Assembly: GCA_018820855.1 (NCBI GenBank)
Contig: JAHJNL010000077.1
Location: 1-64,000, forward strand
Reading direction: 5' to 3'
Length of the DNA stretch: 64,000 nt
Source of the DNA: Pseudomonadota bacterium
GTDB taxonomy: Bacteria > Desulfobacterota > Desulfobulbia > Desulfobulbales > Desulfocapsaceae
The notes below the pieces were generated by a model, which searched no databases, was not told the origin of the DNA, and saw nothing but the letters and a program-made list of their open reading frames with translations. This document shows positions 46,876-61,193 of this stretch, one piece after another. The stretch's first letter is position 1, and each line of letters opens with the position of its first letter. Position numbers and translations under genes: made by a program.

Positions 46876-48210
46876 TCATTCCATGCCGTGATTTTTCATC
46901 TTTTCCCATAAGTTTTTTCTGCTGATACCTAACAGCGCTGCGGTCTCTGTCCTGTTGCCATTGCAATGAGTAAGAGCCTTTTTCAGGCAGGCCTGCTCGG
47001 CAATGGCCATGTTTTTGGCAAGGCTGAAGCCTACGTCAGGTTCGCCATTTTGAGAGCAGAGTTCAGTGGGGAGATCGCTGGGAGTAATTATCGGCCCGCT
47101 GCAAAGGACAGATGCCCTTTCCATAAGGTTACGAAGTTCTCTCGCGTTTCCCGGGAAAGAGTATGCTGTAAGACAGGCCAGGGCTTCCGGAGACAAAGAA
47201 AAAGGCCTGTTGGGTGACGAACTGAATTCCTTCAGGAAATGGATGCAGAGATCATGGATATCTTCTTTATGTTCTCGAAGTGGTGGCATGACAATGGGGA
47301 TTACCTTCAGTCTGAAGAGCAGATCCTGACGGAAGCGTCCTTCTGCTACTTCCTTTTGCAGGTCTTTGGAGGTGCAGGCAAGTACGCGAACATCAACTCT
47401 GATCGTTCTGGTCCCTCCAACCCGTTCAAATGCCCCTTCCTGAAGAACACGCAGTAACTTTGCCTGCAGCGGTCCTGGCAGATCCCCAAGCTCGTCAAGT
47501 AACAGCGTTCCGTGGTCTGCCAGTTCGAATCTCCCTTTCCGCATCTGGTCAGCTCCTGTGAACGCTCCACGTTCATGACCGAACATTTCAGATTCCATAA
47601 GACCATCAGGGATGGCCGCACAGTTAATGGAAACAAAGGGCTTGCTTTTGCGCAGGCTGGCCTTGTGGATGGCTCGTGCGGCAAGTTCCTTACCTGTCCC
47701 GGATTCCCCGGTTATCAGGATCGTGGCGTTGGTGGGAGCCGCCTGATCAATAATGGAATAGATCTGCTGCATAGAGGGGCTGTTGCCGATGAGACCACGG
47801 TCTGTCACCTGGGCATTTGCTTCGAGGAATGCACATCTGGCTTTTACGCTCTGAATATCAAGGAATCTGCTGCTCCGGATAATAAGATCATCCAGGTCAA
47901 AGGGTTTGAGGATATAATCCGAAGCACCTTTTCGTAAACAGTCCAGGGCATCGTTGATGCTGCCATAGGCGGTCATGATGATGACATCTGTTTCCGGGGA
48001 GTGTTTTTTTATTTTCTCAAGCAGCTTCATTCCATCCAAACCCGGCATGCGTATATCGGAAATGACAAGGTGATAATCTCTCTTGTCCAGCAATTTGGCG
48101 GCGTCGAGTCCATTTTCTGCCTGATCCACATGCCAGCCAAATTGCTTCAGCCTGTCATAGACGGATATGCGCATTATTTCATCATCTTCAGCAAGAAGTA
48201 TTCTAGGCAT
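46876..48210 (-). CDS. NtrC-family sigma-54-dependent response regulator
   Basis: A 444-residue enhancer-binding protein. Receiver domain 1-115 with acidic pair Glu8-Asp9-Asp10, phospho-acceptor Asp52 in VISDIRMPG, Thr80 and Lys102. AAA+ domain about 139-375 with Walker A GESGTGKE (168-175), the sigma-54 contact loop GAFTGA (215-220) and Walker [11 protein letters not shown] Fis-type helix-turn-helix closes the protein ([20 protein letters not shown]). It is downstream of its kinase on the same strand with 28 bases between. Two pairs of matching palindromes and a sigma-54 promoter lie on the far side of the kinase, in front of the cytochrome operon, making it the best candidate regulator of that operon and possibly of itself. 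Confidence 0.95.
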
Positions 48211-48238: not shown

Positions 48239-49870
48239 TCAGCTTTCAGCTCTCAGTTTTTCCGTCTGTGCCGGAAAGGTGACTGTAACCGTTGTACCGA
48301 CACCCAGCTCACTTTCCACTTCAATGCTTCCCTTCATCTGTGTTACCAGTGAATACGTTACCGACAGACCTAAACCGGTTCCGATACCGACATCTTTGGT
48401 GGTAAAAAAGGGATCGAAAATATGGGTCAATGTGTTTTTAGCAATTCCCATGCCTGTATCCCTGAAAGTCAATCGGATTTCTGAGTCGATCACCTCAGAA
48501 CCAATGGTTAAGATACCTCCATCGGGCATGGCCTGAATGGCATTGAGGCCAAGGTTGACAATGACCTGTTTAAGGGCCTCAGCGTCAACATAGTAGTGCT
48601 CCTTGAGGCTGTTGTCCTGTTTAATGCTAATGTCCTTCAGCTTATAGGAAAGCAGTTCCAGGCACTCACCCAGAAGGATTCCGACATCTATTTTTCGTAA
48701 TTGCAACGGCTCCTGTCTGCCAAAATTCAATAGTTGTCTCATGGTATGTTCAATGCGCTTCAATCCTTTATCCAGAAGGGGAAGATAGCGTTCACGCATC
48801 TCATGATCGTCAGGACACTCTCGCATGGCTTTGACACAGTTGAGCATGCCGCCCAGAGGATTATTTACCTCGTGAGCAATCCCTGCAGAAAGAATGCCGA
48901 GCGAGGCCATCTTTTCATTCAACCATGCCTGCTGACGAGTTTTATCGAGTTCCCTCTGGGACTGGGTGAGGCGTTCGCACAGTTGAGAAAAGTGCTCGCT
49001 GAGGTTTCCGATTTCATCGTCGCCGGTGGGAAGAGTGAGTTGGTCAGGTTCAACTTCCGGAAAAGAATTCATCGCCGCGGAAAGTCTGTTTACTCTGTTG
49101 ACCACAAGGGTGTTGAACATGATCAGGAGTGTAATGGAAACGAGAATGAAACTTACCAGTCCGATAAAAAAGAGTGATCTGTTATTGGCCTTGATCTTTG
49201 CATCAGCCCAGGCAATGGGAATAGTGATCGAAAGAGCCCCTCTGATATCGCCTTTGACGTAGCCGTGCCGGGCGTGGCAGCCAAGGCACGAATCTTTGAC
49301 ATCTAATGGAGCCATGTAGCGGACGACCCTGCCTTGCGGACTGTCGCTTATGTCGATGGATTCAAGAGTTCCTTTTTCGAAGTTAATCATACACTGTCTT
49401 TCGTAGTCATCAGGAACATTTGCCGGATTAATTGGTTTGAGACTGGTGACGCGAAAACTGCCCAACCCTTTTTGGGTGGAATATTCGGACAGTTCCCTGG
49501 TGACCATGGCCGGGTTGCGCATCATATATTCAGTGCCCGATTGGTCTCGAATGACCGGAAGATCGAGAAAGGGGTTGCTTTTAACCCCTTCTTTTTTGAT
49601 GACGAACAGGCCGTTGTGTTCTGAAACCCATTGCCGGGTAATGAGAATCTGGTTGTGGAGCATACGCGCCTGTTGCTGTGCCTGAAGAAGAATAAGTTCA
49701 TTGTCAACTGTAGATATTCTGTAGAGAAATATCATGTACGAAACAGAGATGATTGCGCCTATGGCCACGATAAACTTTCCTCGCAGGGAAAATTTTGATT
49801 CGAGCCATTTATACAGAGATTTGATGGTGATAAGACATGATATGATAAAAACTTTGAAAGCAATTTTCAT
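48239..49870 (-). CDS. Sensor histidine kinase with haem c-binding periplasmic domain
   Basis: A 543-residue membrane kinase. A first helix at about 30-50 is followed by a periplasmic domain of about 170 residues of the Tll0287-like/DUF3365 type, with a haem c site CLGCH (195-199) and the typical GDIRGALSITIP after it. The second helix is about 231-255, then a HAMP-like linker, HisKA with His333 in AGIAHEVNNPLGG, and an HATPase domain (N-box VNLGLNAIQA, then GMGIA, FTTKDVGIGTGLGL). Related haem-binding sensors respond to redox state or small ligands such as NO. ATG 49870 was chosen because AAGG lies 7 bases upstream; ATG 49876 is possible. Nearby nitrate/nitrite genes suggest the signal may be nitrogen-oxide or quinone redox related, but this is inference. 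Confidence 0.9.
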   Translation of the reverse strand: MKIAFKVFIISCLITIKSLYKWLESKFSLRGKFIVAIGAIISVSYMIFLYRISTVDNELILLQAQQQARMLHNQILITRQWVSEHNGLFVIKKEGVKSNPFLDLPVIRDQSGTEYMMRNPAMVTRELSEYSTQKGLGSFRVTSLKPINPANVPDDYERQCMINFEKGTLESIDISDSPQGRVVRYMAPLDVKDSCLGCHARHGYVKGDIRGALSITIPIAWADAKIKANNRSLFFIGLVSFILVSITLLIMFNTLVVNRVNRLSAAMNSFPEVEPDQLTLPTGDDEIGNLSEHFSQLCERLTQSQRELDKTRQQAWLNEKMASLGILSAGIAHEVNNPLGGMLNCVKAMRECPDDHEMRERYLPLLDKGLKRIEHTMRQLLNFGRQEPLQLRKIDVGILLGECLELLSYKLKDISIKQDNSLKEHYYVDAEALKQVIVNLGLNAIQAMPDGGILTIGSEVIDSEIRLTFRDTGMGIAKNTLTHIFDPFFTTKDVGIGTGLGLSVTYSLVTQMKGSIEVESELGVGTTVTVTFPAQTEKLRAES

Positions 49871-50069
49871 TTTCATACCTTTTTTTGGGAAAAAATTGAG
49901 TGCCTGCTGAGCTGATTAGATAGTTTTTTCTAGTACAATTTTTTGAAAATGGATGATTCCTGGCGGTCCTTTTTGCCGGAAAGGAATTTGCGTCCGGCAA
50001 GGAGGGACCTGATAAGAGGAATTGAGAGTGAGTTTCTGACCAAGGTCTGAATCCTCAACCATTTTTATT

Positions 50070-50675: not shown

Positions 50676-50728
50676 GGAGGTGGCGTAGTATAGTCATTAA
50701 TTAATTGATATTGTATTATATTTATAAT

Positions 50729-50744
50729 TGGAATGGAATTTGCT
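50729..50744 (+). promoter_or_regulatory. Sigma-54 promoter of the cytochrome operon
   Basis: TGGAAT-GGAAT-TTGCT matches TGGCAC-N5-TTGCW with GG and GC in place and exact spacing. The predicted start is near 50755 and the first gene begins at 50865, leaving a leader of about 110 bases. Confidence 0.82.
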
Positions 50745-50864: not shown

Positions 50865-51419
50865 GTGGATAAGGAGTATAAATCACACTATTACAGCCAT
50901 GTGGTCAGAATTGCTTTTTTTCTGGTCATAGGCGGCGTTCTGGCCGTGGTGGCACGTGGGCTGTTTCTGCCTGACACGATGGGACAGTATGGTCACTATC
51001 GTGGTAGCAATATCGAGGAACAGAAAAATGTTGAAGTGAGAAATCACACCAATGAATCCTGTTACGAATGCCATCGCCCAATCAGACTTATTCACAAGGC
51101 TGGTGTCCACCAAACAGTCTCCTGTGAATTCTGTCACGGTCCTTATGCAGATCATATTCAAGATGGCAAGTATGTGGAAAAATTGCCGGTGAAGAGAGAT
51201 ATGGAGATTAAGGCTCTCTGCCTTCGTTGCCATAATAAAGTCATTCGCGCCCGTCCTGAAGACTCTATCAAGATGGTTGCCATGCCGCAGCATCTTGAGG
51301 AGAAAAAAGTACAGACAGATCACAACTGTAACCAGTGTCATATGGTTCATGATCCGCTGCTCTGGATAAAAGCGGCCAGAGAGATGATGGGTTTGCCGAT
51401 GAAGGAGGATAAGAAGTAA
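50865..51419 (+). CDS. Membrane-anchored tetrahaem cytochrome c
   Basis: A 184-residue protein with an N-terminal membrane helix (about 12-32) and four haem c motifs: CYECH (66-70), CEFCH (87-91), CLRCH (119-123) and CNQCH (155-159). Size and anchoring resemble NrfH/NapC-type quinol dehydrogenases, but the motif spacing and the missing fifth-haem pattern do not fit them closely. It is better described as the cytochrome subunit of a cytochrome/FeS/NrfD complex, as in Qrc- or NrfBCD-like systems. The start is GTG with GGGAGG in front. The stop overlaps the next ATG (TAATG). It would pass electrons between the NrfD/FeS subunits and the octahaem enzyme. Confidence 0.88.
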   Translation: MDKEYKSHYYSHVVRIAFFLVIGGVLAVVARGLFLPDTMGQYGHYRGSNIEEQKNVEVRNHTNESCYECHRPIRLIHKAGVHQTVSCEFCHGPYADHIQDGKYVEKLPVKRDMEIKALCLRCHNKVIRARPEDSIKMVAMPQHLEEKKVQTDHNCNQCHMVHDPLLWIKAAREMMGLPMKEDKK

Positions 51420-52222
51420 TGATTGATATAAAAAAGGAAATTCAGAAGGATCGTCGTGCCTTCATCAAGAACGTCCTTGGTGGAACTATTGCCGGTTCCC
51501 TGCTGCTGGTAATTCCAGCAGGTGCAGCACTTGACAGTAAGCTACCCGAGCAGCTTCCTGGAATGAGGGGAGATGATTCGGTATTTACTGAAAAGAAATT
51601 TGTCTTCATCGTGGATGTTACCGCCTGCATCGGTTGCGGTTCATGCTGTGTGGCAGATAAGAATGAATACAATGTCCCTGACGGGAACTATCGGACATGG
51701 GTTGAGCGTTATATCATTGACGACCATGATGAAGTCTTTGTCGATTCTCCCAATGGCGGTCTCGATGGCTATACAGAGCCTCGAACCGATATTCCCTTTC
51801 CGGTTCGCGATACCTTTTTCGTCCCCAAGCTCTGTAATATGTGTGAAAAACCCTCCTGTGTTCAGGTATGTCCGGTTGGCGCGACCTATAAGACAGAGGA
51901 CGGCTTTATCCTGATTGATAAGGACCGTTGTGTCGGTTGCGGTTACTGCATTCAGGCATGTCCCTATTCTGTGCGTTATCTGAATCCGCTGACAAGGACC
52001 GCAGATAAATGTACCTGGTGTTACCATCGGGTACGCAAGGGATTGTTACCGGCCTGCGTCAATGTCTGTCCTGTACATGCCAGAAAATTTGGTGATTTGA
52101 ACGATAAGACTTCCGAAGTCTATAGGCTTTTACGTGAGCCCCATGTGATCTCTGTACTCAAGCCGGGTATGGGCAATAAACCAGCGCTTCATTATCTTGG
52201 TCTGCGAAGGGAGGTAGTATAA
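51419..52222 (+). CDS. NrfC/PsrB-like four-cluster ferredoxin subunit
   Basis: A 267-residue protein with a twin-arginine signal (KDRRAFIKN, then a hydrophobic stretch GGTIAGSLLLVIPAGAA) for export in folded form. Four Cys sets bind [4Fe-4S] clusters: CIGCGSC, CNMCEKPSCVQVCP, CVGCGYCIQACP and CTWCYHRVRKGLLPACVNVC. This is the PsrB/NrfC subunit pattern, which wires a NrfD-type membrane subunit to a periplasmic partner. Start and stop overlap both neighbours by one base, so the three proteins are made in step. Confidence 0.93.
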   Translation: MIDIKKEIQKDRRAFIKNVLGGTIAGSLLLVIPAGAALDSKLPEQLPGMRGDDSVFTEKKFVFIVDVTACIGCGSCCVADKNEYNVPDGNYRTWVERYIIDDHDEVFVDSPNGGLDGYTEPRTDIPFPVRDTFFVPKLCNMCEKPSCVQVCPVGATYKTEDGFILIDKDRCVGCGYCIQACPYSVRYLNPLTRTADKCTWCYHRVRKGLLPACVNVCPVHARKFGDLNDKTSEVYRLLREPHVISVLKPGMGNKPALHYLGLRREVV

Positions 52223-53421
52223 TGAGTGTAGCCGCACATGGTGATACTGCCGCCGCAGTAGCAAATTATATTTTTCCTAACGATCTTCATGTCCATTGGA
52301 GTCTGATGATCGTCCTCTATCCCTACATAACTGGTATTGTGGCAGGGGCATTTATTGTTTCCTCCCTTTACCACGTTTTTCATATCAAGGAGCTGAAACC
52401 CATTTCCAGGTTCTCACTCCTCTTTGCCCTGGCCTTTTTGATTTGTGCAACCTGGCCACTGTTGAATCATCTGGGACATCCGGAACGGGCGATGAGTATG
52501 ATGCTTACTCCGAACCCGACATCAGCCATGGCCGGTTTTGGTTATATCTATTCTGCTTACATGATTGTTCTCCTCCTGGAGATTCTTTTTCTCTATCGAC
52601 CTACCGTAGTTGCTTTGAAAGAACAGGCATCCGGTTTTATGAGAACTGTTTATGGGATACTGTCAGTCGGCAGTGATAATGTCTCTGAGAAGGCGCTTAA
52701 GCTGGATCATAAAATTATCAGTTTTCTTGCCGCAATAGGCATTCCCATGGCCTGTGTCTTACACGGCTATGTCGGGTTTATCTTTGGCGGGATCAAGGCA
52801 AATCCATTATGGGCCACTCCGCTCATGCCTTTGATCTTTCTCCTCTCTGCCTGTGTCTCAGGTATCGCCGGGATTATCCTGGCCTATACCCTTATCATGA
52901 AGTTCACAGGGCAGCCGTTGGATGTGAACTGTATCCGCACCTGTGTGAAATTTCTGTGGGGATTTTTTATCCTGGATTTTGTCTTTGAGATGCTGGAGCT
53001 TTTCTCCCATTTTTATATGGCAACCCATCATTGGCACACTCTGGAAACCCTTTACTCAGGACCACTGTATGTGAGTTTCTGGGTTCTACAGGTGGGCGTG
53101 TTCTCTGTTATCCCGTTTTTTGTTCTTATGGCGCTCAGTTTGATTAACTGGAATGACAAGGTCATCGCATTCTTTGCTCCTCTGGTTTCCGTGATGATTT
53201 TGTGCCAGGTTCTGCTCATGCGCTGGAATGTCGTTGTCGGTGGTCAGCTTATGTCCAAGAGTGAGAGGGGTGCTACAACATTTCACCCTCAATGGCTTGA
53301 AAAAGAGGGTATCCTGCCTGCAATTATTATTATGGTTGCCCCCCTGGTCATTCTCTGGATCCTAGGCAAGGTCTTACCGTTTTGGCAAAAAGATGATCCG
53401 GCAGCACAGCAGGTCGGATGA
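52222..53421 (+). CDS. NrfD/PsrC-type quinone-interacting membrane subunit
   Basis: A 399-residue protein with about ten membrane helices, an N-terminal periplasmic segment, and the polytopic pattern of NrfD/PsrC (PYITGIVAGAFIVSSLYHVF, then HLGHPERAM, then LHGYVGFIFG). It should oxidise or reduce menaquinone on the periplasmic side and exchange electrons with the FeS subunit encoded before it. The neighbours (tetrahaem cytochrome, FeS protein, octahaem cytochrome) suggest a quinol-to-nitrogen-oxide electron route. Direction of electron flow and proton coupling cannot be read from sequence. Confidence 0.92.
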   Translation: MSVAAHGDTAAAVANYIFPNDLHVHWSLMIVLYPYITGIVAGAFIVSSLYHVFHIKELKPISRFSLLFALAFLICATWPLLNHLGHPERAMSMMLTPNPTSAMAGFGYIYSAYMIVLLLEILFLYRPTVVALKEQASGFMRTVYGILSVGSDNVSEKALKLDHKIISFLAAIGIPMACVLHGYVGFIFGGIKANPLWATPLMPLIFLLSACVSGIAGIILAYTLIMKFTGQPLDVNCIRTCVKFLWGFFILDFVFEMLELFSHFYMATHHWHTLETLYSGPLYVSFWVLQVGVFSVIPFFVLMALSLINWNDKVIAFFAPLVSVMILCQVLLMRWNVVVGGQLMSKSERGATTFHPQWLEKEGILPAIIIMVAPLVILWILGKVLPFWQKDDPAAQQVG

Positions 53422-53565
53422 TCTGATCAATTGTGAGAACTGCGATCAATGCGTTCATTCAACCGAAAGGAGGAAATTGCTGGGGAAAAAGAAGTTTCAC
53501 AGAAGATGCCGGTTGGTTCCGGTGTGAAAAGTGTTTTACTTTCTACTATTCGGGAGGAAAGAAAT

Positions 53566-55152
53566 ATGCAGTATTGGAAGACGACTCTTTCAATGGCAAC
53601 TCTTGGTTTGTTGCTTGCCAGCCCATCGTTTGCAACAACAAAGGCAGCAATGAATACCCAGGATGTAGCTGTTAAAGAGATGAATGTTAAATGCATTAAC
53701 TGTCATCAGAAAGAAAATTACTCACTGGTTATGCAGTGGAAGAACTCTCCCCATGCAGCAGCCCAGGACGGACAGGTAGGCTGTTATAACTGCCATGCCG
53801 CTGAACAGGGCGATGAGACATCCTACATGCATGAGGGAGCACTGATCAAAACCATCATGACTCCCAAGGACTGCGGCTATTGTCATGAGAATGAAGTGAA
53901 GCAGCAGGCTCCTTCTCATCATGCCTCTGCCGGTCAGATTATGGCTTCTCTTGATAATGTGGTCGGTGAAGTCATCTGTTCCATGGAAGACAAGGCTGAT
54001 GCCGTTAACGGTTGCTGGCAGTGTCACGGTTCCATCATCAAGGTTCAGAAAGGCAAGGACGGCAAGCCGCTGCTCAATCAATTCAAGGCCGTCATGCTTG
54101 ACCCCACGACTTATCCCAACAGTGGTATCGGTCGTCTGAATCCGGATGGAACCAAGGGCGCCTGTAATGCCTGTCATGGCAAACATTCCTTTAAAGCATC
54201 TACTGCCCGTCAGCCGGAGAACTGTGGAAAATGCCATCTCGGTCCTGATCATCCGCAGATGGAAATCTATAATGAGTCCAAGCACGGTATTGCCTATTAC
54301 TCCGCATCTCGGGATCGCGGTATGAATGGTATGAATATCCATAAATCAGGAAAATGGGTACTTGGTAAAGACTATTACACTGCCCCGACCTGTTCTACCT
54401 GTCATATGGGTTCATTTGTAAAATCTGATGGATCAGTTTCAGAGAACACCCATAATGTGGGTGATCGTATTTCCTGGACCCTGCGTCCTAAAGTATCTGT
54501 CAAGCTGAACCGTGTTGTCTTTGAAGACGGCACCCAGAAAGATATTCCCGGCGATATTGCTCCGCAACCAGGTCAGCTTATCAAGTACAAGGAATTTAAA
54601 TTTGTTGATGATAAATGGAAGGAAGTACCTGTTGAAAAAGAAGCCGTCGAAGTTGTTGCCTGGGAAGAGCGTCGCGGTAACATGAAGGCTGTCTGCAAGC
54701 AGTGTCATGGTGAACAGAAGGTTGATAATTTCTATATACAATTTGACGCCCTTGTTGTGACCTATAACGAGAAATTCGCCAAACCTGCCCAAAAGCTGTT
54801 CAAGATGGCCATGGATGATGGTCTTATTCACGGATCCACCTTTCATACCGAATTGGGCTGGCACTGGTGGGAGCTCTGGCATCATGAGGGACGTCGTGCC
54901 CGTCACGGTGCAGCTATGCAGGGCCCGGACTACACCCATTGGCATGGTATGTATGATGTTGCCCATAACTTCTATTTCAAGTTCATCCCTGAGCTCATGC
55001 ATCTCGCTGAGAAAAAAGGCATGACCGAGAAATATAAAAAAGAAGTTGGCGAAATCTTAGCCAAGCCTGAGCATCAGTGGTACCAGAAAGGTTTTGGTGA
55101 AGGTGTCATGGAAGACATCAAGGCCCAGGAAAAGGCTCGTTACAAACAGTAA
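53566..55152 (+). CDS. Octahaem cytochrome c of the hydroxylamine oxidoreductase (HAO) family
   Basis: A 528-residue secreted protein with a signal peptide ending SPSFA. Eight haem motifs, all CxxCH: residues 43, 73, 103, 150, 200, 220, 276 and 377. No CxxCK is present, which excludes the octahaem tetrathionate/nitrite reductase (OTR/ONR) families. The C-terminal region HWWELWHHEGRRARHGAAMQ and PDYTHWHGMYDVA is characteristic of HAO proteins. HAO-family enzymes oxidise hydroxylamine in nitrifiers; epsilonproteobacterial members work in reverse on nitrite or hydroxylamine. Placement between a quinone-linked module and nap genes favours a reductive role, inferred. Whether Tyr456 corresponds to the crosslinking tyrosine of the oxidative enzymes needs alignment. 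ATG 53566 has GGGAGG 7 bases upstream; the longer frame to 53449 lacks a signal peptide. Confidence 0.92.
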   Translation: MQYWKTTLSMATLGLLLASPSFATTKAAMNTQDVAVKEMNVKCINCHQKENYSLVMQWKNSPHAAAQDGQVGCYNCHAAEQGDETSYMHEGALIKTIMTPKDCGYCHENEVKQQAPSHHASAGQIMASLDNVVGEVICSMEDKADAVNGCWQCHGSIIKVQKGKDGKPLLNQFKAVMLDPTTYPNSGIGRLNPDGTKGACNACHGKHSFKASTARQPENCGKCHLGPDHPQMEIYNESKHGIAYYSASRDRGMNGMNIHKSGKWVLGKDYYTAPTCSTCHMGSFVKSDGSVSENTHNVGDRISWTLRPKVSVKLNRVVFEDGTQKDIPGDIAPQPGQLIKYKEFKFVDDKWKEVPVEKEAVEVVAWEERRGNMKAVCKQCHGEQKVDNFYIQFDALVVTYNEKFAKPAQKLFKMAMDDGLIHGSTFHTELGWHWWELWHHEGRRARHGAAMQGPDYTHWHGMYDVAHNFYFKFIPELMHLAEKKGMTEKYKKEVGEILAKPEHQWYQKGFGEGVMEDIKAQEKARYKQ

Positions 55153-55172
55153 TCTGCTATTATCTAAAAATT

Positions 55173-55204
55173 ACGCCCCGGCATGCTTCGAGATGCCGGG
55201 GCGT
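55173..55204. terminator. GC-rich hairpin after the octahaem gene
   Basis: A 12-base-pair stem (55173-55184 with 55193-55204; arm ACGCCCCGGCAT) with an 8-base loop, 21 bases after the stop. Stable, but not followed by a T-run, so it may stabilise the upstream mRNA more than terminate it. Confidence 0.55.
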
Positions 55205-55244
55205 CTCAATTATCTCTTGTTCTCGTCTCTTCAGGGTGATTGCA

Positions 55245-55298
55245 GATTACGCTTGCTGGTTTTCTTAAGGCCTTCACTGGGAACCAGCAAGCGTAATC
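55245..55298. repeat. Perfect 17-base inverted repeat
   Basis: GATTACGCTTGCTGGTT at 55245-55261 is repeated in reverse complement at 55282-55298, with a 20-base spacer that contains AAGGCCTT. It lies just upstream of the unknown secreted protein gene. It could form a long hairpin or be the end pair of a small mobile remnant; no flanking direct repeat was recognised. Confidence 0.65.
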
Positions 55299-55331
55299 CG
55301 TAAACATCTCTTGTACTCAAAAGGAAAATGC

Positions 55332-55994
55332 ATGAAAAATCCCATAATATCAAAATGGAAGACAGTCCTCTTGGTTTTGCTCATCGTTTTTATGACCTTT
55401 GCCGCAGGGACAGGACAAGGCCAGACGGTGGATTATGATGCCATGTCCAGGACCGAGCTGCAAAATAAGATTGCAACGTTGGGACTTGGCTTAGGAAGCT
55501 ACATTGTCGGCAGAGAGCTGACCCCGGAACAGCAGGCAACGGCTGAGAAAGATTCTGCATACAAGTCTTATCCTGGGACAGTGAAATTTAAGGATAAGGA
55601 CATCTTTGTCATTGCCGATCAGGAGACAAAGGTGGTGATAGCCCTTTATGTAAGGAATAAACAGGCAACGCAAGATGATTTCAAAGCAATGATAGGTGAA
55701 TTGATGATGCGCTTTGGTGAACCCACTGCTGAGGCCCATGGAAAAACAATTTACTGGAATTATGCCGCGGATGGATTGATTACTGAAGAACTGTACAGGA
55801 CAGTGAAAGACAAAGGTCTGCTGGAAACCCTTGGGGTGCTGGCAACTGTCAAATTCAGCTCCAGTCAGAGCGTAGATGAGCTCTCTGCAACAGCGAAAGA
55901 AGAGAAAGATGAGGCTGAAAAATCAATAGCCAGCAGTGATAATTATGTGATGATTCAGTCAGACGTTTTATCAAAGAAATATATGGGGAATTAG
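55332..55994 (+). CDS. Secreted protein of unknown function
   Basis: A 220-residue protein with a signal peptide (KTVLLVLLIVFMTFAAGTGQ, cleavage probably after GQG or AAG). The mature part reads MSRTELQNKIATLGLGLGSY, then KDKDIFVIADQETKVVIALY and MIGELMMRFGEPTAEAHGKT with IYWNY, and ends in a charged helical stretch. The fold looks like a small alpha/beta domain of the type 'reads a stored value', but no family was recognised. No Cys, so it binds no haem c. It lies between the octahaem cytochrome and napM on the same strand. ATG 55332 is chosen over ATG 55311 because the signal peptide then starts normally. Confidence 0.75.
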   Translation: MKNPIISKWKTVLLVLLIVFMTFAAGTGQGQTVDYDAMSRTELQNKIATLGLGLGSYIVGRELTPEQQATAEKDSAYKSYPGTVKFKDKDIFVIADQETKVVIALYVRNKQATQDDFKAMIGELMMRFGEPTAEAHGKTIYWNYAADGLITEELYRTVKDKGLLETLGVLATVKFSSSQSVDELSATAKEEKDEAEKSIASSDNYVMIQSDVLSKKYMGN

Positions 55995-56046
55995 TCGGCT
56001 GGCCGTTTACGGGAACATTCTAAAATTTCAATGGATACCTATTTGC

Positions 56047-56349
56047 ATGCAGAAATTTGTTGTCATCGTAATCATGTTGCTTGTCAGTTCCTGTTCGGCC
56101 CCAACCAAGGTTGCCACTGAATTACCGGACAGTTCCGAACTGCCAAGGATGCCGGACGAGTACCGGGATAAGGATAAAAGGATAACGGATCCCGTTGGCA
56201 TGTGGGTCTATGATGCTGCTGAAAAACAGGCAGAGGATGATTATTTCGGAGTCGAGGTGCTTTCCCTTGAGGAATCTCAGAGGATTTTACGGGATCGTAA
56301 AGAGGCACAAAAGAATGAGTCTTCGAGCGCAGAAAAAGAAAGTAAATAG
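56047..56349 (+). CDS. Small lipoprotein of unknown function
   Basis: A 100-residue protein with a signal peptide and lipobox LVSSC (Cys16). The mature part is charged and mostly helical: RMPDEYRDKDKRITDPVGMW, then VEVLSLEESQRILRDRKEAQ and a Ser/Glu/Lys-rich end. It is 52 bases after the unknown secreted protein and in line with it. It could be an outer membrane or inner membrane anchor for a partner in the nitrogen-oxide locus, but there is no family evidence. Confidence 0.7.
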   Translation: MQKFVVIVIMLLVSSCSAPTKVATELPDSSELPRMPDEYRDKDKRITDPVGMWVYDAAEKQAEDDYFGVEVLSLEESQRILRDRKEAQKNESSSAEKESK

Positions 56350-56503
56350 TCTGGAAACAGATAACGCGGAATCGATTTTTATCCTCTAGAGGCAGCTTTT
56401 CTTGAAGCAAAGAGGGGAGCTTTTTTACTGAAACTTTCGTGAGTCTTGTTTTGGCAAGAAAGAGATTGTTGTTTCATTTGATTTCAACATCGGGAGGTTG
56501 TAC

Positions 56504-56884
56504 ATGAAAAAACTGTTTGCTCTCAATCTATTATTGGCGGTTTTCTTTCTCTTCTGGGCTTGTATCGGTTCGGAAAGCAGTGGTGTGGTGAATGCCACCA
56601 CAGTTTCTGCTCATCCTGACGTCAGTGAACAGGAAAAACTCCTGCCTTGTTTCCAGTGTCACCAGGAGGCCACACCTGAGATCTATGACGAATGGTTCAA
56701 TTCGCTTCATGGTATCGGTATGGTGAAGTGTTATCAGTGTCACGGGACCTATGAAAATTTTAAAAAGGAACCTGCGGCCTCCGACTGTATGGTCTGTCAT
56801 GCCGACCAGATCGAGAAATGTCCCCAAGACAAGAAATGCTGGTCTTGTCATAACGCCCATACTTTTAAGCGAAACAATAAATAG
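56504..56884 (+). CDS. napM: Tetrahaem cytochrome c NapM
   Basis: A 126-residue protein with an N-terminal hydrophobic segment (FALNLLLAVFFLFWAC) that may be a lipoprotein signal or an anchor; the Cys20 context FWAC is not a perfect lipobox. Four haem motifs: CFQCH (49-53), CYQCH (76-80), CMVCH (95-99) and CWSCH (112-116). It directly precedes napA, as napM does in Desulfovibrio desulfuricans, where it is thought to pass electrons to NapA in place of NapB. GGGAGG lies before ATG 56504. Confidence 0.85.
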   Translation: MKKLFALNLLLAVFFLFWACIGSESSGVVNATTVSAHPDVSEQEKLLPCFQCHQEATPEIYDEWFNSLHGIGMVKCYQCHGTYENFKKEPAASDCMVCHADQIEKCPQDKKCWSCHNAHTFKRNNK

Positions 56885-56893
56885 GAGGGAACC

Positions 56894-59281
56894 ATGGTAC
56901 AGTCAAGACGTGAATTTCTGAAACGAACCGCAGCACTCAGTGCGGCCTCCTATGTGGGCATGACCCTTCCCTTCCGTGAGGAAGGATTGGCTCGGGCTGC
57001 TGATGATACTGTCTGGCATCGAGGATCCTGCAGACTCTGTGGAGTCGGTTGCAGGGTGGAACTCGGTGTAAAAGACAGCAAGCCTGTGGCGCTTCGAGGA
57101 GTACCGAAATCAAGAACAAATTACGGATATGTGTGCATGAAGGGCATGCTTTTCTGGAAGGTGATGAATCATGCCGAACGCTTGACGACTCCCCTTTATC
57201 GAGCCCAAAAATCAGACAAGTTTAAAGCCATTTCCTGGGATGAGGCCCTGGATATTGCAGCCGGGAAATTTGCCTCGGCAGTCAAAGAGCATGGCAATGA
57301 TTCCGTGGCCTATTACGGATCGGGTCAGGCCCTGACTGAAGAAACCTATTTTTTTCAGAAAATCTTTCGGGGCGGGCTGCAGACCAACAATGTGGAGGGG
57401 AATCCCAGGCTTTGTATGGCCAGTGCGGTGGGCGGCTATCTCACCTCTTTTGGTGCAGATGAACCCATAGGCGGCTATGCTGATATCGAAAAGGCCGACT
57501 GCATGTTCATTATCGGCTCGAATATGGCAGAAGCGCATCCCGTGATTTTCAGACGGGTGATGCGACGGAAACTGGACAACCCGGAAGTTACCATTATCAA
57601 CGCCGATCCTCGTATTTCTCTTACCTCCCGTATCGCTGATATCCACCTCCAGTTCAAACCTGGGACTGATCTTGCCCTGTTGAATGCCATGGCCCATGTT
57701 ATCGTCAAAGAAAAGCTCTATGACAAAAAATTTATTGATGACTATACGACCTTTAAAACAGGGAAGGGAGATCTTGCCGATCTTGCTCAGTATGAGATAT
57801 TTCTGGCAGACTATACCCCGGAACAGGCGGCAAAAACCATGGGCGGCAAGGTGACGGCCGATCAGATTCGGGAAGTAGCGCGTCGATTTGCCACCTCCAA
57901 GGGAACGATGAGTTTCTGGACAATGGGACTCAACCAGCGTAAACAAGGCGTCTGGGCCAACAATCTGGTTCATAACCTGCATATCCTCACCGGACAGCTT
58001 CTGAAAGAGGGCGCGGACAGTCTTTCTCTTACCGGCCAGCCCAACGCCTGTGGCGGCGTGCGGGAAGGTGGCGGACTCTGTCATATCCTGCCAGGGCACC
58101 GACTGGTGGCGAAGGAACCCCTGCGCAACCAGGTGGAGGAGGCCTGGGGAATTCCCAAGGGGCGCATACCACCTAAGCCCGGTTATCATACCATGGCCAT
58201 GTTCACGGCAGTGAACGAGAAGAAGATCAAGGCCATGTGGATCAACTGTACCAGTCCTGTACAGAGTCTGCCCAACTGTAATCTCTACAACGAGGGAATG
58301 GCCAGGGATGATACCTTTATCGTCTGTACCGATATCTTTCCGACATTGACCACTGAGCTTGCAGCCAATCTTGTCCTGCCCACTGCCTTTCATTTTGAAA
58401 AGACCGGGGTGTATGGATGTACCGAGCGTCGTTCTCAGTTGACCAGGAAGGCCATTGATCCGCCCAAGGGCGCCAAACCGGAAGTCTGGATTATCCGGGA
58501 GTGGGGCAGAAAACTTGCCGAAAAACTGAATGATCCGGTGATCACTCAGTGCATCAAACCCTTTGAGGGGCTGGAAGAAGGATACGAGCTGCCCAAGGCC
58601 ATCTGGGATGAATATTCTCAGAAACTGACCAAGGGGCGCGACAACGACCTGCGTGGGGCCACCTATGAGGTGCTGGAACAGATGTATGATGGTGTGCAGT
58701 GGCCGGCGCCGACTGAGGAGTATGCCCTCACGGGTGGGACTGTAAAGAAGTTTGTCCGGGGGATGGACCCCATGGCAGACAGTCATGCCAAGGACGATAG
58801 GCCCTATCAGTTTTACGGCCCGGCCCATCCGGATCAAAAGCTCTGGATATGGATGCGTCCCCAGGCCGATCCGGAAGAGATTCCTGATGCCGAGTATCCC
58901 TTCTACCTCTCAACCGGTCGAATTATTGATCATTGGCACACCATGAGTATGACCGGTCGGGTAAAGGAACTGCTGCGGGCCAACCCCTATGCCTATATCG
59001 AGGTCAACCCGGTAGATGCCGGACGTATGGGCATCAAGCCCGGAGATATGGTGGAGGTCACCTCAAGGCGCGGGACAAATGTCCTGCCGGCCAAGGTCTA
59101 TGAAGGTCCCATTGAAGGGATGGTCTTTGTCTATTGGCATGATCAGCATCCTGACCGTATGATCAACAAGGTAACCAAAGACGCCTATGATCCCGGTTCC
59201 AAGGAGCCCGAGTTCAAAATCTGTGCCTGCAAGGTGCAAAAGGTTTCCGGGCCTAAGGCTTTAAAACCCTACATCGTTTAG
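56894..59281 (+). CDS. napA: Periplasmic nitrate reductase catalytic subunit NapA
   Basis: A 795-residue molybdoenzyme with a twin-arginine signal (SRREFLKRTAA). The N-terminal [4Fe-4S] site is C46-x2-C49-x3-C53-x27-C81. The Mo ligand is Cys174 in NPRLCMASAV, and the next stretch FGADEPIGGYADIEKADCMF and GSNMAEAHPV matches NapA. The bis-MGD binding pattern runs through to the C-terminal STGRIIDHWHTMSMTGR. The length matches sulfate-reducer NapA rather than the longer enterobacterial form. It reduces nitrate to nitrite in the periplasm. napM is ten bases upstream; a 94-base palindromic repeat separates it from napD. Formate dehydrogenase is unlikely, given the Cys context and neighbours. Confidence 0.93.
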   Translation: MVQSRREFLKRTAALSAASYVGMTLPFREEGLARAADDTVWHRGSCRLCGVGCRVELGVKDSKPVALRGVPKSRTNYGYVCMKGMLFWKVMNHAERLTTPLYRAQKSDKFKAISWDEALDIAAGKFASAVKEHGNDSVAYYGSGQALTEETYFFQKIFRGGLQTNNVEGNPRLCMASAVGGYLTSFGADEPIGGYADIEKADCMFIIGSNMAEAHPVIFRRVMRRKLDNPEVTIINADPRISLTSRIADIHLQFKPGTDLALLNAMAHVIVKEKLYDKKFIDDYTTFKTGKGDLADLAQYEIFLADYTPEQAAKTMGGKVTADQIREVARRFATSKGTMSFWTMGLNQRKQGVWANNLVHNLHILTGQLLKEGADSLSLTGQPNACGGVREGGGLCHILPGHRLVAKEPLRNQVEEAWGIPKGRIPPKPGYHTMAMFTAVNEKKIKAMWINCTSPVQSLPNCNLYNEGMARDDTFIVCTDIFPTLTTELAANLVLPTAFHFEKTGVYGCTERRSQLTRKAIDPPKGAKPEVWIIREWGRKLAEKLNDPVITQCIKPFEGLEEGYELPKAIWDEYSQKLTKGRDNDLRGATYEVLEQMYDGVQWPAPTEEYALTGGTVKKFVRGMDPMADSHAKDDRPYQFYGPAHPDQKLWIWMRPQADPEEIPDAEYPFYLSTGRIIDHWHTMSMTGRVKELLRANPYAYIEVNPVDAGRMGIKPGDMVEVTSRRGTNVLPAKVYEGPIEGMVFVYWHDQHPDRMINKVTKDAYDPGSKEPEFKICACKVQKVSGPKALKPYIV

Positions 59282-59290
59282 GTAAAAGCT

Positions 59291-59385
59291 CATCAGCACT
59301 CCACCTGCGCGCGATCAAGATGTGTGGCATAGGTAGGCTATGGCCGCACATCTTGATCGCCCACATCTGAAGCACTGCTGAACTT
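59291..59385. repeat. Palindromic repeat with variable stem, copy 2
   Basis: A 95-base palindrome between napA and napD. It begins CATCAGCACTCCACCT and ends CTGAAGCACTGCTGAACTT, with apex CATAG-GTA-GGCTAT, sharing ends, apex and length with copy 1 (45012-45105). The stem pairs 59310-59330 with 59340-59361 almost perfectly but is unrelated in sequence to copy 1's stem. Being inside the nap operon, it will form a large mRNA hairpin. Confidence 0.75.
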
Positions 59386-59450
59386 TAACCTCTGTTTAAG
59401 GGGTGTTTGTATTAACAGACGAAAATTTCATGTTGTTGTGAGGAGGAATT

Positions 59451-59765
59451 ATGGTGGTTGGCGGTTTTGTGGTCCAGTGTCTGCCTGATGAGAGAAACAA
59501 AGCAGCTCAGGCCCTCTCAGCTCTGCAGGGTGTTGAGGTGTATGGAGATGATGAACAGGGAAATGTTGTCGTTGTGGCAGAGGCCGATTCTTCCGGGGAG
59601 TTGGGAGAGGTTGTGAAACGCATGGAGAAAGTGGATTCTGTTCTCAATGTGGGGATGACCTATATGAATATGGAGGACGAGGCGGAACAGATAGCCAGTG
59701 GCGAGAGTACTCCCAAGGTCTTTGACGGGAGGAAGCGGAAGCGAGATTCCCTTGAAACGCCGTGA
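59451..59765 (+). CDS. napD: NapD, NapA signal-peptide chaperone
   Basis: A 104-residue cytoplasmic protein with the NapD start VVGGFVVQCLPDERNKAAQA and the later LSALQGVEVYG, DDEQGNVVVVAE and VDSVLNVGMTY, the ferredoxin-like fold of the family. NapD binds the NapA twin-arginine signal peptide and holds back export until cofactor insertion. A Lys/Arg-rich tail of about 20 residues is longer than usual. GAGGAGG lies before the ATG. The 3' end overlaps the probable napG start. Confidence 0.88.
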   Translation: MVVGGFVVQCLPDERNKAAQALSALQGVEVYGDDEQGNVVVVAEADSSGELGEVVKRMEKVDSVLNVGMTYMNMEDEAEQIASGESTPKVFDGRKRKRDSLETP

Positions 59766-60348
59766 ATTTGTAAAAGGTGTGGCAGGATCCCTTTCTGCCA
59801 CATTTCTCCTGCCGGCTGCGGCCAGAGCCCTGTCTCTGATCAAGTCACCGGTACGTACTAACCGGCTGCGTCCTCCCGGGGCCGTGCCCGAAGAGATCTT
59901 TGCCGGCAAGTGTATTCGCTGCGGCCGCTGTGTCGAGGTCTGTCCCTATCGCTCTATCTCTCTGCTGGATATTCGGGCAGGTGTCTATGCCGGAACCCCG
60001 ATTATTGCTGCCGAAGAGATTCCCTGCTATCTCTGTATGAAATGTGTTGAGGTCTGTCCCACCGGTACCCTGCTCAAGATCCGTCAGGAAGAGACCCGCA
60101 TGGGGATAGCAATAGTAAATCGGCACCTCTGCTATACCTGGCAGAGTTTCACCATCTGTAGAACCTGTTTTGATGTCTGTCCATACAAGGAGCAGGCCAT
60201 TACCCTGGACCAGCTGCGTCCGATCATTGTGGAAGATCGTTGTGTGGGCTGCGGTCTCTGCACCCATGCCTGTCCGGTGACAGCAGAGGATGGGCAGAAG
60301 GCCATCAATATCGAACCCATCCATGCCTGGGAACGTGTGCGATGGTAA
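59752..60348 (+). CDS. napG: NapG ferredoxin-type subunit
   Basis: A protein of about 198 residues with a twin-arginine signal (KRREFVKGVAGSLSATFLLP) and Cys sets for four [4Fe-4S] clusters: CIRCGRCVEVCP, CYLCMKCVEVCP, ICRTCFDVCP (with Cys in the preceding LCYTW) and CVGCGLCTHACP. NapG works with NapH to feed electrons from menaquinol to NapA. The start is uncertain: TTG 59752 puts the KRRxF motif at the very N-terminus as in homologues, with GAAGCGAG upstream; GTG 59698 would overlap napD by more. It overlaps napH by seven bases. Confidence 0.87.
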   Translation: MKRREFVKGVAGSLSATFLLPAAARALSLIKSPVRTNRLRPPGAVPEEIFAGKCIRCGRCVEVCPYRSISLLDIRAGVYAGTPIIAAEEIPCYLCMKCVEVCPTGTLLKIRQEETRMGIAIVNRHLCYTWQSFTICRTCFDVCPYKEQAITLDQLRPIIVEDRCVGCGLCTHACPVTAEDGQKAINIEPIHAWERVRW

Positions 60349-61193
60349 GGGAAAAAAGAGGAAACATCCATCGCACCCGTTTAGTCGTACTGAGCTTGGC
60401 CTTTCTCCTGATCCTGATAAACCCATTTTTAAACTATTATCTGGAGCTCAATTTCATCCAGGGCTGGTATCAATCCTTTGGCATCGGCAAGCTCTGGTTT
60501 GTTTCTCCGCTGGAGGGGTTGGAGAGCCTTCTGGTCTCCAAACAGATATTCCTTCCTACCCTTATCGGGATGCTTCTTCCGGTCTGTCTTGCAGCATTAT
60601 TGGGCTCAGTGTACTGCAGCTGGCTCTGTCCGATTAGTTTCCTGCATGAGATCCTGGATTTCCTGCGAAAAATACTTTTCCGAAAAAAATGGCTCAAGGA
60701 TCATCTTGTCCTTTCGCGCCGAACCCTCTGGTATGCTCTCATAGGTGAGATTATCTTGTCCCTGATCCTGGCCGCTCCCCTTTTTGTCTTTCTGTCTCCT
60801 CCGGGCCTTGTCGGCCGAGAGATCATGACCGCTGTCTTTTTTCATAGCCTGGCCTTGGAAGGAGTTGTCGTCCTGTTGGTTCTGGGCATGAATCTGGTGA
60901 CCAGACGGTTTTTCTGCCGCTATTTCTGTCCTCTGGGGGCCACCCTGAACATCATCGGCAGCAGACGGAAGCTGCGGGTGATTCAGGATCTTTCCACTTG
61001 CACCGAATGTGGGTTGTGCGACCGGGCATGTCCCTTGGGGTTGACTCCATCCCTTGGTATGGCGCAATCCGCCTACTGTTGGAACTGTGGGGAGTGTACA
61101 GCGGTTTGCAAGCCAGGGGCTCTGGAATATCAGTGGGGAAAGAAAGGGGATGCCGAGACTGCGGCTGTTGTCGGACAGGGAGATGCCGGCTGA
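60342..61193 (+). CDS. napH: NapH membrane quinol dehydrogenase subunit
   Basis: A 283-residue membrane protein with four predicted helices and two cytoplasmic-side [4Fe-4S] sites, CTECGLCDRACPLG and CWNCGECTAVCKPGA, plus the conserved CSWLCP and CRYFCPLGA Cys motifs between helices. This is the NapH pattern. In other bacteria NapGH makes an alternative quinol route to Nap when NapC is absent, which fits this operon. ATG 60342 sits just inside the napG stop; the long upstream frame to 60240 is a shadow of napG. The operon ends here; no hairpin terminator was evident in the next 110 bases. Confidence 0.92.
   Translation: MVREKRGNIHRTRLVVLSLAFLLILINPFLNYYLELNFIQGWYQSFGIGKLWFVSPLEGLESLLVSKQIFLPTLIGMLLPVCLAALLGSVYCSWLCPISFLHEILDFLRKILFRKKWLKDHLVLSRRTLWYALIGEIILSLILAAPLFVFLSPPGLVGREIMTAVFFHSLALEGVVVLLVLGMNLVTRRFFCRYFCPLGATLNIIGSRRKLRVIQDLSTCTECGLCDRACPLGLTPSLGMAQSAYCWNCGECTAVCKPGALEYQWGKKGDAETAAVVGQGDAG

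Follow-up and report, generated by a model that had tools for sequence, protein, structure and literature searches.

We analysed a stretch of 64,000 nucleotides (hereafter the window; positions 1 to 64,000 of contig JAHJNL010000077.1, assembly GCA_018820855.1) from a member of the Desulfocapsaceae (Desulfobacterota), probably a sulfate reducer. At 50865-61193 it carries eleven genes, all on the forward strand, in which a nap nitrate reductase set stands behind a four-gene set, here called the quartet, that we read as a candidate nitrite reductase. The quartet encodes a membrane-anchored tetrahaem cytochrome c (50865-51419; four CxxCH motifs, one transmembrane-like segment), a Tat-exported iron-sulfur (FeS) subunit resembling TtrB, NrfC and DsrO (51419-52222; DRRAFIK motif, 16 cysteines, PF13247 at 92 bits), an NrfD-family membrane subunit (52222-53421; PF03916 at 141 bits, eight transmembrane-like segments by hydropathy) and an octahaem cytochrome of the HAO superfamily (53566-55152; eight CxxCH). 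One-base overlaps join the tetrahaem and FeS genes and the FeS and NrfD genes. Next come genes for two exported proteins, u1 (55311-55994, whose true start may lie slightly downstream) and the small u2 (56047-56349, with a lipobox-like VSSC), and then napM (tetrahaem cytochrome, 56498-56884; four CxxCH, PF02085 at 24 bits), napA (molybdopterin nitrate reductase, 56894-59281; Tat signal SRREFLK, best NCBIfam NapA model PRK13532 at 650 bits against a cut-off of 904), napD (chaperone, 59451-59765; PF03927 at 75.8 bits), napG (Tat-exported ferredoxin, 59698-60348; KRREFVK, assigned by family match) and napH (membrane ferredoxin, 60240-61193; TIGR02163 at 113 bits against a cut-off of 213, with the true start probably inside the given open reading frame (ORF)). 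This gene order, proposed in an earlier reading of the same DNA (the original prediction), was confirmed by the ORF list, with coordinates as first noted, by the haem-motif counts, and by Pfam and NCBIfam matches for the FeS, NrfD, octahaem, NapA, NapD, NapG-type FeS and NapH proteins. No NapB was found in the window, where no stop-to-stop frame of at least 90 residues has exactly two CxxCH, and the frames of that length with more than two are those of the tetrahaem, octahaem and NapM proteins. The statement that nrfA and napB are missing thus stood for the window and, as regards nrfA, failed for the genome, which holds a full NrfA elsewhere. A perfect 14-base inverted repeat lies between napA and napD (59311-59360), within a long hairpin (-39.8 kcal/mol), with no second copy in the window.

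The octahaem cytochrome very likely starts at 53566, at the ATG behind GGAGGAAAGAAAT, the point at which most aligned homologues also begin, and not at 53449 as first given; residue numbers are counted here from 53449. Its PF13447 match (76.5 bits, cut-off 21.9) and eight haem motifs place it in the HAO superfamily. The CxxCK haem motif of NrfA and ONR is absent, all eight motifs being CxxCH, and its NCBIfam matches at E 0.001 do not include OTR (TIGR04315). In an alignment of 148 rows, His497 falls in the column of Tyr467 of NeHAO, which we take to be the cross-link residue (residue 467 of chain 4fas was checked and is Tyr). Tyr fills this column in 3/3 rows taken as oxidative references and in 0/145 other rows, which have H, Q, W, F, V, A, S or T, and it is likewise missing from all ten octahaems of the other nap cassettes described below. 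The window's clade retains the catalytic pair Asp267-His268, for which the Ignicoccus type has Asp-Val. In a quick-search tree of 101 rows (47 of the 148 were dropped by hand as near-duplicates), the 18 quartet-clade rows that remained clustered together (SH-aLRT 100), with oxidative HAO (NeHAO and R. pomeroyi HAO), the Ignicoccus type and the NapC-partnered type all falling outside the cluster and with long reference branches; 6t5e was taken to be an oxidative enzyme and 6h5l the reductive Kuenenia enzyme. Such a tree had been proposed beforehand as a check, and it sets the protein apart from the oxidative enzymes as expected. With the cross-link Tyr absent and Asp-His retained, the octahaem is well supported by residues and tree position as a reductive-type HAO relative, as originally predicted. 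Membership of the HAO superfamily and the retained catalytic pair would also suit an enzyme that oxidises hydroxylamine or hydrazine and feeds quinone, but the protein shows neither the Tyr nor a grouping with oxidative HAO or HDH and stands beside nap in an anaerobe lineage, and we regard an oxidative role as very improbable. Enzymes with His at the key site, the reductive forms, have been inferred to be older, and the oxidative Tyr forms to be derived (PMC12758564; this and the papers cited below are drawn on from excerpts).

Apart from these class features, an insert at about 354-402, predicted as beta-strands in a low-confidence model, separates the long-form octahaem from relatives of about 460 residues. 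PDB searches with short C-terminal pieces of the protein returned only the protein itself or no match.

The three partner subunits fit known families less closely. The FeS subunit scored 200 bits to TtrB, 156 to NrfC and 151 to DsrO, all below cut-off; the equivalog cut-offs of the NrfBCD models were missed (NrfC 156 of 378 bits, NrfD 69 of 348 bits), and the tetrahaem cytochrome had no PF03264 (NapC/NrfH family) match at E 0.001. The name NrfCD-type module, given to these genes at first, is thus apt only loosely, as both cut-offs are missed and the FeS subunit scores higher to TtrB than to NrfC. The FeS/NrfD/tetrahaem partner is supported as quinol-linked in its appearance from sequence, in line with what had been proposed.

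The pairing of such a partner with an octahaem had been called unusual, a view that did not survive a wider comparison. In a phylum sample of 395 genomes, the octahaem has a match at E 1e-40 in 119, and for 40 of these, besides the window's own genome, the neighbourhood was retrieved; these 40, the window, the best 80 of at least 577 named relatives and two plasmid loci gave 123 loci. In this set, where close relatives are over-represented, FeS and NrfD genes adjoin the octahaem in 39 of the 123 loci (38 of them if a tetrahaem gene is counted as well), and a cluster of this kind was published in 2017 (PMC5276818). Sixteen of the 39 lie outside the window's clade, five of these in another gene order, and 11 of the 123 loci have a NapC-type partner without NrfD. 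NapA is encoded on the same strand within 9 kb in 15 of the 39 loci and in 7 of the 16 outside the clade. In the window's own clade, 23 of 24 loci have the FeS, NrfD and octahaem genes grouped, which argues that the arrangement is not due to chance; a locus with an NrfD-like ORF about 9 kb from the octahaem (L088) and one without u1 (L095) were kept in the counts as misses. The clade loci span Desulfocapsaceae, Desulfobulbaceae, Desulfobacterales and the families f31 and f32, and the clade also occurs in one metagenome-assembled genome (MAG) labelled Myxococcota and two labelled Campylobacterota. The latter two (L090 and L096; Arcobacteraceae and Sulfurospirillaceae) carry the quartet, which may reflect transfer or binning error. 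Among the matches listed, the closest octahaem from a named genus is that of Desulfocapsa sp. MC-05 (87% identity), followed by two Deltaproteobacteria MAGs (77% and 76%) and Desulforhopalus singaporensis (75%), matches that by themselves make a Desulfocapsaceae source likely. At two loci, L100 and L126, the octahaem has no adjoining FeS/NrfD or NapC gene, and a membrane-type protein of 350 residues is encoded directly upstream, a possible other type of partner.

The strongest evidence for the function of the quartet is what fills its place at related nap loci. NapA at least 71% identical to that of the window was present in 20 of the 395 genomes, its own included (44 match at E 1e-125). In a NapA search of 45 genomes, rows at 34-44% identity, many with in-frame stops, were excluded as NapA, being probably formate dehydrogenases or other relatives; that search found no NapA in G412, though its locus L096 has a napA-like ORF of 446 bits. 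Around nap in the 20 genomes, a NapC-type octahaem was seen in ten (its tetrahaem partner in nine of these stretches), the quartet in five, nrfHA in three and none of these in two (G155 and G281), and no stretch (0/20) held two cassettes. The octahaems of the NapC-type cassettes were assigned to this type by best match, the protein of D. ovata (284-321 bits) being the reference. Genome-wide, NrfA was found in 1/5 of the genomes with the quartet, 0/10 with the NapC type, 3/3 with nrfHA and 1/2 of the others. The closest sampled NapA, sister to that of the window (85% identity, support 100/99), is from G357, a genome of the same family in which no octahaem matches at E 1e-40. Its nap stretch carries divergent nrfHA together with close relatives of the two-component system that lies upstream of the quartet in the window on the reverse strand, namely an NtrC-type response regulator with a sigma-54 activation domain (46876-48210; PF00158 at 234.5 bits, PF00072 at 102 bits; relative at 746 bits) and a sensor histidine kinase with a Tll0287-like sensor domain and one CxxCH (48239-49876; PF11845 at 77 bits, PF02518 at 81 bits; relative at 683 bits). 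Relatives of both also stand beside the quartet of Desulfocapsa sp. MC-05 (L079; regulator 775 bits, sensor 893 bits), and a relative of the sensor beside that of D. singaporensis (L097; 326 bits, cut at the locus edge). The best NapA tree requires five changes among the three cassettes, where the minimum possible is two and shuffled labels average 7.9.

Because the quartet occupies the slot that nrfHA fills in the closest nap locus of the sample, with closely related regulators next to both, this pattern supports its being a quinol-linked nitrite reductase equivalent to nrfHA. We put the probability of the nitrite-reductase role, which had been proposed from the window and gains support from the cassette exchange, at about 0.72. 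As to mechanism, NapMADGH would produce periplasmic nitrite, NrfD would oxidise menaquinol (judging by its family), and the electrons would pass by way of the FeS subunit and then the membrane-anchored tetrahaem cytochrome to the octahaem enzyme, which would reduce nitrite, most likely to ammonium, and perhaps also hydroxylamine. The quartet would accordingly do at the nap locus, with an HAO-family enzyme, what nrfHA does. We are less confident of ammonium as the direct product than of the nitrite-reductase role, since reductive HAO enzymes may release intermediates. More generally, the balance of the evidence leads us to favour a napMADGH core that, in this phylum, is accompanied by one exchangeable and functionally equivalent nitrite-reductase cassette at a time, swapped several times and once under closely related sensors; we similarly lean towards nrfHA, the NapC-type octahaem pair and the tetrahaem-FeS-NrfD-octahaem quartet as the three interchangeable forms. 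A literature search, which subscription papers lay outside, found no prior description of nap cassette exchange. What is new here is the cassette pattern among the 20 nap genomes, the quartet cluster as such having been published already.

The distribution of NrfA was compared with that of the octahaem in 37 close-clade genomes, picked by hand from the 119 (E 1e-68 or better, plus G360). NrfA (E 1e-30) was found in 4 of these 37 genomes, compared with 116 of the 358 others (p = 0.005, Fisher test with ancestry ignored), and three of the four belong to one genus. Where the quartet itself was seen, NrfA occurred in 1 of 15 genomes against 119 of 380 (one-sided p = 0.03, likewise with ancestry ignored), the 380 including genomes whose neighbourhoods went unexamined for the quartet. 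Among 19 named clade genomes, only the nearest relative, Desulfocapsa sp. MC-05, has NrfA. A survey of this kind had been proposed at the outset, and it shows NrfA to be rarer where the octahaem clade occurs, though not absent. D. singaporensis (G413), which has nap and the quartet, gave no match for NrfA (E 1e-30), OTR-family proteins (E 1e-20) or NarG (E 1e-60).

A number of observations weigh against a nitrite-reductase role for the quartet. The structure model of the octahaem is poor (pLDDT 63.6); one paper describes indications that His changed to Tyr independently inside Desulfobacterota (PMC12758564), so that related enzymes may differ in direction. Well-supported NapA branches force fewer cassette changes (at least two for the quartet, at least two for nrfHA and at least one for the NapC type), and the Fisher tests take no account of shared ancestry. 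The genome also holds NrfA, Hcp and three OTR-family octahaems, each a possible nitrite or hydroxylamine reductase; the last are octahaem-like proteins below the family cut-off (241-301 bits) at G000:C14:57633-58865, G000:C7:45564-46775 and G000:C73:4071-5327. Over-cut-off proteins of this family occur in 14 of the 24 clade genomes, where the octahaem is often not the sole candidate. Furthermore, napA lies on the same strand within 9 kb in only 8 of the 24 clade loci, many of whose contigs end early, and the FeS subunit is nearest to TtrB. The last two points, namely the 16 of 24 loci without such a napA and the 200-bit best score, are what would be expected if the quartet acted as a reductase of tetrathionate, polysulfide or sulfite and stood near nap incidentally or under shared acceptor-sensing control. 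The authors of the published cluster themselves named tetrathionate or polysulfide as an option (PMC5276818), which also tells against nitrite; the four genes are drawn in the sulfur model of the T. dismutans genome paper (PMC4911364), several carriers, including T. dismutans and Desulfocapsa, are known users of sulfur compounds (PMC4911364, PMC12998232), and nitrate represses another NrfD gene, one linked to sulfur, in Deferrivibrio (PMC11896075). Nevertheless, we consider a sulfur substrate unlikely: in G357 nrfHA fills the corresponding slot, beside a sister NapA and closely related regulators, that slot is taken by octahaems of another type at ten further nap loci, and quartets of other subclades also adjoin napA (7/16).

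The claim that the octahaem stands in place of NrfA does not hold for the genome as a whole. Contig C39 encodes a full pentahaem NrfA (565 bits; CWSCK and four CxxCH); the original prediction had named an nrfA elsewhere, expressed with nap, as a point that would speak against it, and the first half of this applies, in that the gene is present. This NrfA looks orphaned on sequence grounds, because a profile search found no NrfH over cut-off in the genome, where the only NapC-family match at E 1e-5 is partial (35 bits, in a frame of 501 residues). An NrfA without an NrfH-like gene in the fetched stretch was also seen in a congener (G339) and in Desulfocapsa sp. MC-05 (G395). It is conceivable that NrfA is the working nitrite reductase here and that the quartet, or its tetrahaem-FeS-NrfD part, serves NrfA or handles hydroxylamine or nitric oxide spill-over: without an NrfH an NrfA needs some donor, the quartet has an NrfBCD-like electron path, and HAO relatives can act on hydroxylamine. 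On the other hand, the unlinked NrfA of G339 occurs in a genome without an octahaem match at E 1e-40 and is thus independent of the quartet, no sigma-54-like site precedes nrfA, and most quartet genomes have no NrfA match. We judge this division of labour improbable, and nitrite reduction by the quartet remains the reading that we prefer.

Promoter predictions bear on how the quartet may be controlled. With a sigma-54 matrix whose weights were set by hand, and with mononucleotide shuffles for p values, the top site on both strands of the window is TTGGAATGGAATTTGCT (50728-50744, forward strand; score 17.8, the next being 14.5), 120 bp 5' of the tetrahaem gene. Weaker sites precede the quartets of L079 (10.1) and L097 (9.1), napM in G357 (14.1) and L097 (11.2), and nrfH in G357 (10.0); these and the window site all have p <= 0.035 against shuffles. 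The 0.05 level was reached by 9 of 24 upstream stretches, these six and the quartets of L082, L083 and L085. Upstream of the quartets of L036-L039, L080 and L092 (p 0.15 to 0.74), of napM in the window and of three unlinked nrfA genes, the scan gave no such site; the nrfA on C39 has none upstream. As far as can be read from the DNA, the adjacent two-component system probably activates the quartet through sigma-54. The stretch between octahaem and u1 (55165-55215) folds at -26.2 kcal/mol and contains a strong hairpin with a 12-bp stem (55173-55204), a possible terminator or attenuator. As terminator-like hairpins occur in the same place after the octahaem in L079 and L097, the quartet may be a transcription unit of its own, with read-through to u1, u2 and nap.

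The two proteins encoded between quartet and nap have no clear family (u1 none in Pfam at E 0.01, u2 none at E 0.001). Because u1 follows the octahaem in 22 of the 24 clade loci, the window counted, it is probably a fifth member of the quartet set. Its structure model is good (pLDDT 89.1), and it gave no convincing fold match: the best Foldseek hit had E 0.022 at a probability of 0.16, and the best VIA-align hits, a DUF4309 protein and an antifungal effector, reached at most Z 6.2, below the level that the tool treats as meaningful. Of the 23 clade loci other than the window, L079 alone has a relative of u2 (76 bits). Desulfocapsa sp. MC-05 carries beside its quartet another nap set (L079:11834-17467), about 50% identical and not of the window's type, together with a NapC-type tetrahaem.

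The quartet resembles several known systems in part. Epsilonproteobacterial Hao with an NrfH-like partner, reportedly described by Haase in 2017, is alike in that a membrane partner supplies quinol electrons to an octahaem of the reductive type, whereas the partner in the window consists of tetrahaem, FeS and NrfD subunits and does not match the NapC/NrfH family. The best solved-structure match of the octahaem is 4qo5 (E 4.8e-44), which we take to be from Ignicoccus hospitalis; it belongs to a separate clade and has Val for the catalytic His that the window protein keeps. Placement with the I. hospitalis OCC, suggested by this match, was rejected on the tree and on that residue. Compared with E. 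coli-type NrfABCD, the catalytic subunit is an HAO-family octahaem without CxxCK, and a tetrahaem replaces NrfB, which is a pentahaem. The path from NrfD through FeS and a small multihaem to a catalytic multihaem is alike in both (PMC12285233). In Deferribacter autotrophicus, napMADGH likewise stands beside an octahaem Hao, ammonium is formed from nitrate and NrfA is reported absent, but the partners of its Hao differ, being Hcp, a small membrane protein and a decahaem cytochrome (PMC6896113); a table in the same paper gives nap genomes with nrfA, with hao, with both or with neither. Clusters in Planctomycetota MAGs similarly hold FeS, NrfD and multihaem genes near nar or nap and were guessed to be a new nitrite reductase, whereas their multihaem is mostly a pentahaem and they include ActD and CcoP-like subunits (PMC10732223). 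In Desulfurivibrio dismutans, a second octahaem cluster is induced by nitrate (PMC12142623). According to the available text of PMC10716430, that genome survey looked for nrfA and onr, and HAO-type sequences served it as a check on false positives, so that ammonifiers with octahaem cassettes would go uncounted in it; if our reading is true, counts of ammonifiers from nrfA, or from nrfA and onr, miss both octahaem classes.

The closest counterpart is the 11-gene cluster published in 2017 from Thermosulfurimonas dismutans (TDIS_0599-0609) and Dissulfuribacter thermophilus (DBT_2319-2329) (PMC5276818). Compared by description, the window shares its gene content and order, with two multihaem cytochromes, FeS, NrfD, two periplasmic proteins without assigned function and napMADGH. 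Loci L036-L039 resemble this published type, and their second such protein does not match u2. The authors' guess for the four-gene locus was nitrite reduction, or else tetrathionate or polysulfide (PMC5276818). Both organisms grow by reducing nitrate to ammonium with NrfA reported absent, whereas the genome of the window has an unlinked NrfA, and the route from nitrite to ammonium without NrfA was left open there for nitrate-ammonifying thermophiles (PMC5276818). Since nrfHA and the quartet replace each other next to orthologous nap genes, with a closely related sensor nearby, that question of NrfA-free ammonification becomes directly testable.

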